Below are positions 12,090-15,871 of a stretch of DNA of 64,000 nucleotides, in pieces. Source of the DNA: Zhongshania marina (lineage in GTDB: Bacteria > Pseudomonadota > Gammaproteobacteria > Pseudomonadales > Spongiibacteraceae); assembly GCF_002915595.1 (NCBI RefSeq), contig NZ_PQGG01000031.1, positions 62,001 to 126,000 on the forward strand. The letters are read 5' to 3'. Position numbers and translations under genes: made by a program. Below the pieces are notes generated by a model. That model was not told the origin of the DNA, ran no database searches, and worked only from the letters and a program-made list of their open reading frames with translations. Every line of letters starts with the position of its first letter. Positions within the stretch are counted from its first letter, which is position 1.

Positions 12090-12758
12090 ATGGATTCTTC
12101 ACCCGCCCTTAACTACCGCCGCGCCAGCTATCTAAAAAGCTCACCAGGCCTTATGCACTGCCCAGACGACTCCGGTGCAGAGGTGGCCTTTGCCGGCCGC
12201 TCAAATGCGGGGAAATCCAGTGCAATCAATCGCCTAACCGAGAACAAAAAGCTGGCTAAAACCAGTAAGACGCCTGGGCGAACGCAATTATTAAATTTTT
12301 TCGTCCTAGATGAAACCGGCAGGCAAAGACTCGTCGACCTACCGGGTTACGGCTTTGCCAAAGTCCCCCTAGCGGTAAAGAACGAGTGGCAACGCAATCT
12401 AGAAGCTTATTTGCAAAAACGCGAATCGCTGCGCGGCATGGTGCTGATGATGGATATTCGCCATCCATTAACCGATTTCGACCGGCAAATGGTGGGCTGG
12501 GCGACCAAAAGTGCCATGCCCATGCATATTTTGCTCACCAAGTCCGACAAGCTAAAACGCGGACCGGCACAGGCAACCCTGCTGTCAGTGCGCAGAGAGC
12601 TGGCCGAATATGGCGATTTAATCAGTGTGCAATTATTTTCTGCCCATAACGGCGACGGCCTGCAAGCCCTACGCACGCAACTAGACCAATGGTTAGATAC
12701 GCGGGCATTTGATGAAATAGATAGCGCTGGCGAGGATGAACCAGCAGCCGATAGCTAA
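12090..12758 (+). CDS. engB: Ribosome biogenesis GTP-binding protein EngB/YsxC
   Basis: EngB is an essential TRAFAC GTPase that assists maturation of the large ribosomal subunit. The 222-residue protein has all G motifs: G1 GRSNAGKSS (about residues 36-44), G2 TPGRTQLL, G3 DLPGYG (about 83-88), G4 TKSD (about 150) and G5 SAHNGDG. The acidic C-terminal tail is longer than in Escherichia coli. It is divergent from cytochrome c5 and convergent with polA; the space between engB and polA holds a candidate small RNA. Confidence 0.95.
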
Positions 12759-12773
12759 GAATACCGCACACGT

Positions 12774-12880
12774 AAAAAGGCCCGGCGCGCTGAACTCACC
12801 GGGCAATCCTACTCCTCAGGAGTCAGGGGGAGACAAGTCTCCTAACGCGGGGCTGTTACATACATTTAAGAGCAACAGCC
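12774..12880 (-). ncRNA. Candidate small RNA at the Spot 42/ErsA position between polA and engB
   Basis: This is a 107-nt minus-strand unit with its own promoter elements and an intrinsic terminator. Predicted stems, from the 5' end: GGCTGTTG/TAACAGCC (12880-12851), GGAGAC/GTCTCC (12842-12829), a CCT-ACTCC/GGAGT-AGG hairpin with a bulge (12827-12808), and the terminator GCCCGG/CCGGGC (12804-12780) with five T. A C-rich stretch TCTCCCCCTGACTCCT could pair with purine-rich ribosome sites. In Escherichia coli, Spot 42 (109 nt) and in Pseudomonas, ErsA are encoded at this location in polA orientation. Location, length and architecture support an analogue; I claim no sequence identity. The alternative is that only the terminator is real and serves polA. 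Confidence 0.65.
12780..12804 (-). terminator. Intrinsic terminator downstream of polA and of the candidate sRNA
   Basis: On the minus strand GCCCGG, a 13-nt loop, then CCGGGC, a C and TTTTT (12778-12774). The U-run is on the minus strand only, so it ends polA-direction transcripts, not engB. Confidence 0.8.
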
Positions 12881-12885
12881 TATTA

Positions 12886-12914
12886 AAAGTAGACGCAGAT
12901 TTGCGATTATGCAA
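12886..12914 (-). promoter_or_regulatory. Sigma-70-like promoter of the candidate sRNA
   Basis: TTGCAT (12914-12909) and TACTTT (12891-12886) are separated by exactly 17 bp on the minus strand, starting 2 bp after the polA stop codon. The predicted start falls at the GGCTG that begins the first hairpin (about 12880). Confidence 0.55.
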
Positions 12915-12915
12915 A

Positions 12916-15690
12916 TCAGTGCGCCTCATCCCAATTTGCGCCGACGCCTACCCCCACTTCTAGTGGCACGGACAAATCCGCAGCGGCCATCATTAACACC
13001 ACAACGTCCTTCTTCACTGTATCCAATGCTGCGGGAGCTACCTCTAAGACCAATTCATCATGCACCTGCATGATCATTTTTGCGTCAACTCCGCTGTCGC
13101 TGAGGTAGCGGTCTACTGAAATCATCGCACGTTTTATAATATCTGCCGCGCTACCCTGCATCGGCGCATTAATCGCCGTGCGCTCCGCCGCCTGCCGGCG
13201 CATACCGTTACTGGCATTAATTTCGGGCAGGTATAAACGTCGGCCGAACAAGGTTTCTACATAGCCCTTTTCCGACGCCAACATACGGGTTTCGTCCATA
13301 TAACGCAGCACACCGGGGTAACGCTCAAAATACAGATCGATGTATTCCTGCGCCTCTTTGCGACCAATATGTAGCTGCCGCGCAAGACCAAAAGCCGACA
13401 TGCCATAAATTAAGCCGAAATTAATGGCTTTCGCGTTACGGCGCTGATCGTCACTCACTTGATCTAAGGCAACCCCAAATACCTCTGCGGCGGTAGCCTT
13501 GTGAATGTCTTCTCCCGCGGCAAATGCATCAATCAAGCCGCGATCTCCCGACAAATGCGCCATAATGCGCAGCTCAATTTGAGAATAATCCGCCGCCATA
13601 ATCACATGATCCGCCGGCGCGATAAACGCCTGACGAATCCGCCGCCCCTCGGCGCTGCGTATAGGGATATTCTGTAAATTTGGATCGGAGGACGACAAAC
13701 GTCCGGTAGCGGCAACGGCCTGATGATAAGACGTGTGTATGCGACCTGTAGCCGGCGCAATCAGCAGCGGCAATTTGTCGGTGTAGGTGGATTTGAGCTT
13801 TGCCATGCCGCGATGCTCAAGAATCACCTTGGGCAAAGGGTAGTCATGTGCCAACTCTACCAACACTTCTTCGGCGGTGGACGGCGCGCCCTTTGGGGTC
13901 TTTTTAATAACGGGGATCTGCAAACGCTCAAACAAAATTTCGCCCAGCTGCTTTGGCGACGCCAAATTAAACTCACCGCCAGCCAGTTCATAGGCCTCGC
14001 TTTCTAGGGCCTGCATTTTTAAACCCAGCTCATGGCTCTGTACCTTCAACAGGTCGCGACTCACCAGCGCGCCGTTGCGCTCGATTCGAGATAGAACCGG
14101 CACCAAAGGCAATTCGATGTCGCGATAAACTGACATCAGCACCGAACTCGCCTCTAGTTGCGGCGACATGGCCTGATGTAGGCGGAGGGTGATATCAGCA
14201 TCTTCTGCGGCATAGGGCCCAGCTTGCTCCAAGGCAATCTGATTAAACGTTATCTGCTTTGCACCTTTACCGGCGATATCTTCGAAGTGAATCGTCGTGT
14301 GATCTAAATACTTTAACGCCAATGAATCCATGTCGTGGCGACTGCCCACGGAGTCCAAAACATAGGACTGCAACATGGTGTCTTCGGCAATGCCGCGCAA
14401 GGTAATCCCGTGATTTGCGAGCACATTGGCGTCATATTTTAAATTTTGGCCCAGCTTGCGCTTATTAGCGTCTTCGAGAATCGGCTTGAGGGCAGCCAGT
14501 ACCGCAGCCTCATCGAGCTGATCGGGTGCGTCCAAATAATCGTGGCCAAAAGGCAGGTAAGCGGCTTGGCCAGCCTGCACCGCAAAAGACACCCCGACAA
14601 CCCGCGCCTCCATATAATTTAAACTGGTCGTTTCGGTGTCAAAGGCGAAAAGCGGCGCGGCTTGCAGCTTTTTTAGCCACTCGTCGAACTGGGCTTGGCT
14701 AAGAATCAACTGATAATCTGCCTCGCCGGAAAAGGGCAGAGCGGCACCTTCAATGCCGCTGGCCACGCTGCCATCTTGCGCTGAGGGGGCATCCTGAGCC
14801 AAGGACTCTGCGCGATCTGCCCGACTTAACTCCTCAATCCAGCTTTTAAATTCAAGTTCGGTAAACAGACTCAATAAACGTGCATTATCAGGTTCCGTCG
14901 GTAGCAAATCCGCTACCGAGACATCTAAGGCCACATCGCATTTAATGGTCGCTAAGGTATACGACAGCATGGCCTGCTCATGACTGTCTGCGAGCTTCTT
15001 AGCTATTCCTTTGGCACCACGTATCGGTAAGTCTGGCACCTTGTCGAGATTTTTATAGATGTCATCTAAGCCACCCAAGGCCTGCAACAGGGCAAGCGCT
15101 GTTTTCTCACCAACACCGGCAACACCGGGGATATTGTCTACTTTGTCGCCCATCAGCGCCAAAAAGTCGATAATTAACTCCGGCGGAATACCAAACTTTT
15201 CATTTACACCCGCGATATCCATCACGGTATCGGTCATGGTATTAACCAAGGTTACATGCTCATTCACTAACTGAGCCATATCCTTATCACCGGTGGACAC
15301 CAACACTGGGCGCTCCTTACCCGCCTGAGCCGCCAAGGTACCAATTACATCGTCAGCCTCAACACCCTCAATAACCAATCGCGGTAAGCCCATTGCGTCG
15401 ACAATGTCGTTTATAGGCTGAATTTGACTGCGCAGATCATCAGGCATAGGCGGGCGCTGCGCCTTGTATTGCGGGTACATATCGTCGCGAAAGGTTTTTC
15501 CCTTGGCGTCAAAAACCACTGCAATTGGACTACCGGGATAGTCCTTTTTTAAACGGCGCAACATATTAATAACGCCTTTAATTGCGCCAGTAGGCTGCCC
15601 CTTTGAATTGTTTAGCGGCGGCAGAGCGTGAAAGGCACGGTACAAATATGAGGAACCATCTACTAAAACTAGGGGCTTTATTGCTGTCAT
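12916..15690 (-). CDS. polA: DNA polymerase I
   Basis: PolA performs Okazaki-fragment maturation and repair synthesis. The 924-residue protein is full length with all three activities. The 5'-nuclease domain (about 1-290) has [17 protein letters not shown] and GDKDMAQLV. The 3'-5' exonuclease (about 320-510) keeps the DTE acid pair in [12 protein letters not shown], so proofreading looks intact. The polymerase domain has motif [13 protein letters not shown], motif [15 protein letters not shown] and motif C QVHDELV. The start is placed at ATG 15690 (MTAIKPL) because the seven upstream in-frame codons begin at TTG and do not match the family. It converges with engB. Confidence 0.96.
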
Positions 15691-15871
15691 GGGGGTGAAT
15701 TGGCACGTCAATAATTGGGAAACGGCAGTGTACCACGACCCGTACCAGCATCATTAATCTGTCGAAAATCGCCTCCGTGTTACCGATTTTCACATTATTA
15801 GTAACGTGATTACTTGGCAATTTGCCACATTAACGGGAAATTAACAAAATTTAAGCAGACTTCTTTCTTTG

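Follow-up and report, generated by a model that had tools for sequence, protein, structure and literature searches.

Locus and Predicted Structure

The window, i.e., the whole analysed stretch of 64,000 nucleotides, contains a polA-engB interval of 157 nt. The two flanking genes are convergent, with polA on the minus and engB on the plus strand; the latter we take to be engB (yihA), the name also used in a preliminary description of this DNA. On the minus strand, the polA stop codon (12918-12916) is followed by TTTGCATAATCGCAAATCTGCGTCTACTTTTAATAGGCTG. This interval holds TTGCAT (12914-12909), a 17-nt spacer, TACTTT (12891-12886), a GGCTG start (12880) and the run CTTTTT that extends to 12774. 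That is, both the TTGCAT-17-TACTTT arrangement right after the polA stop and the GGCTG start read as they had been described. The features of the locus are the following.

12774-12880, minus strand: small RNA of about 107 nt, proposed from fold and conservation, with putative start and end
12886-12914, minus strand: putative promoter region, TTGCAT/17 nt/TACTTT (all 10/10 carriers agree in TTGC, GTCTA and alignment position T30)
12894-12890, minus strand: sigma-E-like GTCTA inside the promoter region
12851-12880, minus strand: predicted stem-loop 1 (changes on both sides with pairing kept in 2/5 aligned pairs, 0 broken)
12843-12850, minus strand: linker CCGCGUUA, candidate seed (predicted unpaired probability 0.98-0.99 in the window RNA)
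12829-12842, minus strand: predicted stem-loop 2, GGAGA-CUUG-UCUCC (identical in 10/10 carriers)
12825-12832, minus strand: C-rich tract CUCCCCCU (invariant save one extra C in G011 and G002)
12808-12827, minus strand: stem-loop 3, CCUGACUCC-UGA-GGAGUAGG, from fold and conservation
12774-12804, minus strand: intrinsic terminator, GCCCGGUG...CGCCGGGC plus CUUUUU, from fold and conservation
12916-15711, minus strand: polA, upstream same-strand neighbour (located in relatives via its C-terminal 120 aa)
12090-12758, plus strand: engB (yihA), convergent neighbour (used as tblastn query)

The predicted fold consists of three hairpins and a fourth, GC-rich one that is followed by CTTTTT, 107 nt in total, which bears out the three stem-loops, the fourth one with its T run and the length of about 107 nt given in the preliminary description. 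For nt 1-106, the folding energy is -45.5 kcal/mol compared to a shuffle mean of -31.1 kcal/mol (sd 3.6, z = -4.06), and none of the 200 shuffles was as good. The terminator is absent from the list of our intrinsic-terminator scan, since its loop of 9 exceeds the scan's loop limit of 8. Given this layout, transcription would start near 12880 and the 107-nt RNA would end at its own terminator.

Conservation within the Genus

DNA of the RNA was matched in 10/18 genomes of the window's genus, each time behind polA. A short match in G036, of 28 nt (E 0.0056), was set aside. In the alignment of the ten carriers, hardly any position varies within a core of about 43 nt, GGAGACTTG...TTGCCCGG. The adjoining polA end is less conserved: of the nine other carriers, eight agree with the window at 34-50% of the fourfold sites in the last 160 polA codons, and the nearest one (G017) at 68%. 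Hairpins 2 and 3 and the terminator fold alike in all ten carriers (z between -2.7 and -4.1). This also holds for the presence of the linker CCGCGUU, two bases of which are paired in the predicted folds of G011 and G002.

With regard to the structure as a whole, 98.8% of the alignment cells are paired; shifting the partners by 1-3 columns lowers this to 39-53%. Two pairs show changes on both sides, a number that is reached by 172 of 500 shuffles (mean 1.2). Within stem 1, two of the five aligned pairs changed on both sides and none is broken; for stems 2 and 3 the sequence itself is frozen, i.e., there is too little variation for a covariation test. Stems that are frozen and show no covariation would be compatible with a protein-binding site, e.g., that of a small CsrA/RsmA sponge with the conserved GGA motifs UUAGGAGA, GAGGAGU and GUAGGAUU, and the GGAGA, AGGAGU and AGGAUU segments are indeed invariant in 10/10 carriers. 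There are, however, only these three GGA motifs and most of them are located within stems of the predicted fold, whereas CsrA prefers GGA motifs in loops. We thus regard a protein-binding RNA as quite unlikely. A short peptide gene is extremely unlikely: reading by eye, an AUG frame runs through the core in G011 and G002, but the frame of the window stops after eight codons, G008 has no AUG, and the length of the C run differs among the carriers, which shifts the frame.

Eight of the 18 genus genomes have no such RNA at the polA locus, so the RNA is dispensable. In five of these eight, polA and engB are only 7-17 nt apart, while in the other three no engB was detected beside polA. Among the carriers, the gene's own promoter region and terminator are conserved while the flanks vary, as is characteristic of an independent intergenic small RNA gene. 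The preliminary description would be refuted if relatives had kept the terminator alone; in the alignment of the ten carriers, promoter region and stems are kept as well. This supports its suggestion that a separate, lineage-specific gene for a small RNA occupies the position of Spot 42 and ErsA, in the same orientation. Judged by its sequence, the small RNA gene of the window is real and strongly conserved, with transcription presumed.

Promoter

By hand count, the promoter agrees with the sigma-70 consensus at 6/12 positions. A consensus scan, which needs 9/12, did not list TTGCAT/TACTTT; it listed a different site. Nevertheless, we give weight to this promoter, as 10/10 carriers are identical in TTGC, in GTCTA and in the final T of the -10 hexamer. 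The weak agreement and the missing scan entry, together with an RNA that begins right behind the polA stop, would also fit a 3' untranslated piece of the polA mRNA, i.e., no separate gene and selection on the terminator only. What makes this improbable in our view is that hardly any change occurs in the core ahead of the terminator and that TTGC and GTCTA are kept in all ten carriers, even in G011 and G002, whose polA stop lies some 45 nt farther upstream.

A weak sigma-70 promoter, with its TTG and TA...T, would likewise be compatible with the invariant positions. Readings as a sigma-54 or an extended -10 promoter were discarded by eye, given their misfit in spacing. Compared to a sigma-E site, GTCTA is kept in 10/10 carriers and TTGC is found where GAACTT would stand. 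The sigma-22/AlgU-type pattern GAACY-N15-18-(G)TCNNM occurs in none of the ten polA-engB intervals of the genus. A loss of sigma-E does not explain this change, since RpoE/AlgU (sigma-E) was found in 18/18 genus genomes and GAACTT-N15-GTCTA[TC] precedes rpoE in 9/9 genus genomes examined; a genome of the sister genus has GAACTA in this place. The genome-wide pattern GGAACTT-N16-TCTGA yielded 7 sites compared to 13 for its backwards control and was discarded as uninformative.

Comparison with Known Small RNA Families

Scored against Rfam, the window yields no match at or above the gathering score of any family. At low thresholds, only sub-threshold C-rich hairpin families were reported, and neither Spot 42 nor ErsA was listed by cmscan of the interval at E values up to 10. 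The best sub-threshold match of the interval is to RF02278, a toxic small RNA of Betaproteobacteria (22.5 bits, E 0.017; gathering score 50). It has in common with the window a UGUCUCC C-rich hairpin that is followed by a GCCCGG terminator, a likeness in build and not a membership.

The ErsA model RF01719 (cut-off 50 bits) matches five loci of Pseudomonas, Stutzerimonas and Halopseudomonas and, in the same run, 0/7 loci of Spongiibacteraceae. Among 293 genomes sampled from the order, it passes the cut-off in 12, all from one family; a further 10 give weaker matches, and the 12 genus genomes within this sample give none. Thus, a membership in Spot 42 or ErsA, as considered in the preliminary description, finds no support from the covariance models (cmscan at E up to 10; RF01719).

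ErsA of Pseudomonas is located between polA and engB, and the window RNA has its place, orientation and a terminator in common with it (PMC8575079). As described there, ErsA has an unstructured stretch between its stem-loops 1 and 2, and it depends on sigma-22/AlgU (PMC7565897, PMC8395346). In the polA-engB intervals of Pseudomonas we find GAACT promoters and C4 loops, while the window's genus lacks both; that is, the window RNA agrees with ErsA in locus and orientation but neither in covariance score nor in a sigma-22/AlgU-type promoter. Spot 42 (spf) resides at the same place as the window RNA, i.e., in the polA-engB/yihA interval, and its promoter carries a CRP site (PMC3295665); ErsA is called a functional orthologue of Spot 42 in a review (PMC8395346). 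The third case, sX13 of Xanthomonadaceae, is described as lying behind polA with three stem-loops and C-rich segments, as does the window RNA, but it acts independently of Hfq and bears its 4C/5C motifs in apical loops (PMC3771888). The C5 run of the window is located outside an apical loop, and apical loops with four or more Cs are found in 0/10 of the genus.

One may still ask whether the RNA is a diverged true ortholog of ErsA or Spot 42 with the same job, i.e., envelope stress or carbon control. Interval and orientation are the same (PMC8575079, PMC3295665), as is the order of stem, linker, stem and terminator. Against this stand the missing RF01719 matches in the genus and family samples, the absence of both families from the cmscan list and the lack of a GAACT promoter in 10/10 genus intervals, such that we consider true orthology with an unchanged function unlikely.

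In addition, we built a covariance model (R1) from the RNA of the genus. Within an equal number of genomes of the order (293) it matches six, all from the window's genus (6 of its 12 listed genomes). A second match in G002 (27.3 bits, E 0.005) was rejected as chance, as it is a terminator behind a superoxide-dismutase-like gene. Applied to 85 loci, R1 yields six weak full-length matches outside the genus (11.8-17.4 bits, E 0.055-1.1), all behind polA and in sense orientation, namely in L027, L028 and L033 from the sister genus as well as in L189, L161 and L171. Since these agree mostly in the terminator, we treat orthology as no more than probable. Five antisense terminator matches in loci of the genus score in a similar range (10.3-18.4 bits).

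Survey of polA-engB Intervals

We surveyed 190 loci, i.e., 30 from the order sample, 80 named ones and 80 chosen from 153 matching genomes to spread families. A convergent engB was found for 109 of them; 83 intervals have at least 100 nt and the 81 of 100-700 nt were used. Left out were 26 short intervals (promoter motif in 0/26) and 81 loci without a detected engB (motif in 24/81). Four duplicates were removed only for the promoter/loop count on 67 intervals, while the accessibility count (77/81 intervals) keeps duplicates. Because the species are related, none of the survey counts are independent.

On the polA strand, GAACY-N15-18-(G)TCNNM is present in 49/83 intervals, compared to 12/83 on the other strand and a mean of 3.6 in mononucleotide shuffles. 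A similar picture emerges for CCCC within an apical hairpin loop, which is predicted for 51/81 intervals; the opposite strand has it in 7/81, and ten dinucleotide-preserving shuffles gave 5-14. Outside the genus and with duplicates removed, 45/67 intervals show the sigma-E/AlgU-type promoter, 49/67 the CCCC apical loop and 38/67 both; the respective values for the window's genus are 0/10 each. On the level of families (order-sample genomes with a usable interval, genus excluded), the promoter is found in 15/22, the loop in 16/22 and both within one genome in 13/22. As to predicted accessibility, the best CCCC is unpaired with a probability of at least 0.8 in 51/67 non-genus intervals (with T run, duplicates kept) but only in 1/10 of the genus.

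The sister genus shows the sigma-E-type promoter in 3/3 and the C4 loop in 2/3 cases. Taking the sister genus and the other families as a guide to the ancestral state, we think that an ancestral sigma-E promoter has been replaced by another promoter in the window's genus.

C-Rich Tract and Target Prediction

In the preliminary description, the C-rich segment was suggested to pair with AGGAG-type ribosome sites. The segment is real, but it is mostly base-paired: four of the five Cs of the C5 tract are paired in the predicted fold of the window RNA, shared between two hairpins. The predicted opening cost is 4.1 kcal/mol for GUCUCCCCCUG and 11.3 kcal/mol for the longer GUCUCCCCCUGACUCCU. Within the genus, the best CCCC has an unpaired probability of 0.26-0.52 in 9/10 members and of 0.84 in G006.

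In Oceanicoccus (L043) and G081 (L122), the C run is located in the apical loop of a hairpin before an ACCCGGUG terminator, while the window has GGAGACUUGUCUCCCCCUGACUCC...AGGAGUAGG ahead of GCCCGGUG. The common AGACUU and UCCCCC suggest that a segment of the Oceanicoccus type was refolded into two hairpins in the window. This refolding is our own reading of the sequences, since the automatic alignment with the Oceanicoccus type left the C-rich hairpins out of register.

The exact complement AGGGGGAGA of UCUCCCCCU has 14 genomic sites, among them the antisense strand of the RNA gene, compared to 9 for the backwards pattern; none of these 14 exact 9-mer sites is a convincing ribosome site. For the target prediction called for in the preliminary description, we used 774 start regions from gene calls of our own, covering 864 kb out of 4.13 Mb, and 30 shuffled RNAs. 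No target exceeded the shuffled controls, i.e., the best pairing energies for core, linker and loop were -21.9, -19.2 and -15.0 kcal/mol, respectively, vs. mean best values of -23.2, -21.0 and -17.0 kcal/mol for the shuffles. Given both results, we name no target. By analogy to sX13 we also considered hfq. CUCCUG in the window RNA is able to pair with the hfq site ACAGGAGGCUACACC, but as this RNA segment differs in other carriers, we do not claim hfq as a target. Hfq itself was found in 17/18 genus genomes, and the remaining one (G003) is 84% complete.

Proposed Function and Origin

Most likely, the RNA is a trans-acting antisense regulator; its anatomy and constraint were observed, and the pairing is presumed. 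The RNA would act in trans by antisense pairing with mRNAs, either via the exposed CCGCGUU linker, via the CUCCCCCU tract or via both. The linker is placed like the unstructured domain II that is described between stem-loops 1 and 2 of ErsA (PMC8575079). For the tract, a G-rich target would open the hairpins that hold it, and Hfq probably assists the pairing. Relative to most of the surveyed polA-locus RNAs, the promoter would differ from the sigma-E type and the C tract would have moved from an apical loop to a partly self-paired position. From this changed promoter and shifted tract, one would expect a signal other than envelope stress and a different engagement of targets.

We consider it fairly probable that this free-standing small RNA gene of the Spongiibacter group corresponds in position, and probably by orthology, to the polA-locus small RNAs (ErsA, sX13, Spot 42), acting as an antisense RNA in trans and with both promoter and C tract rewired. 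Among the small RNAs of the polA locus it represents a new variant, which is outside of Spot 42 and ErsA as defined by Rfam. More tentatively, it is conceivable that one ancient, fast-changing small RNA gene occupies the polA interval across much of Gammaproteobacteria, mostly under sigma-E control and with C4-C7 apical loops that would hook G-rich ribosome sites, and that the Rfam ErsA model recognises only part of it. The Spongiibacter lineage would then be a rewiring, in which another promoter took the place of the stress promoter and the C hook came to form hairpins with GGAG segments of the RNA itself, such that the regulator would be self-masked until a strong target opens it.

Of more interest than the single gene is the wider pattern, i.e., sigma-E promoters and C-loops at the same locus across many families, to which the window's lineage is an apparent rewired exception. 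The paper on sX13 closes with the question whether small RNAs are encoded at the polA locus of other bacteria, too, and act in the same way (PMC3771888). Our survey provides a first testable answer to it, as 13/22 families include at least one genome with both marks, while RF01719 passes its cut-off in one family. With a frozen core and neither of the two marks, the window's genus offers a natural comparison for separating the contributions of promoter, loop and core. Our literature search, which covered open-access papers, returned no prior survey of the polA-engB locus.

Further Elements at polA Loci

Beside the intervals' general pattern, some loci show individual arrangements. By eye, two consecutive GAACT-led C-rich elements are found behind polA in L129 (G090), L134 (G116) and L169 (G128), and two tandem sub-threshold RF01719 matches are present at G199:C1:7304805-7305128. 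These tandem elements suggest that some loci carry a duplicated small RNA.

A CTCCTT.TGTG...TTAGTGTTGG segment, common with the ErsA of Pseudomonas, is located behind polA in L036 (G053), L124 (G143) and L182 (G083), and the RF01719 score of G083 is below the cut-off. ErsA proper may thus extend beyond Pseudomonadaceae. Further sub-threshold RF01719 matches of 33.9-45.8 bits lie on contigs other than that of polA (G021:C38:32305-32420, G064:C1:785976-786090 and G068:C123:34280-34400), for which moved copies as well as chance are possible. Finally, in the named loci L059, L060, L065, L070 (Woeseiaceae) and L091, the sequence behind polA shows a GAACT promoter and, besides a hairpin loop of CUCCC or CCUCCC, a second hairpin rich in C, where L059, L060, L065 and L091 are labelled Gammaproteobacteria.
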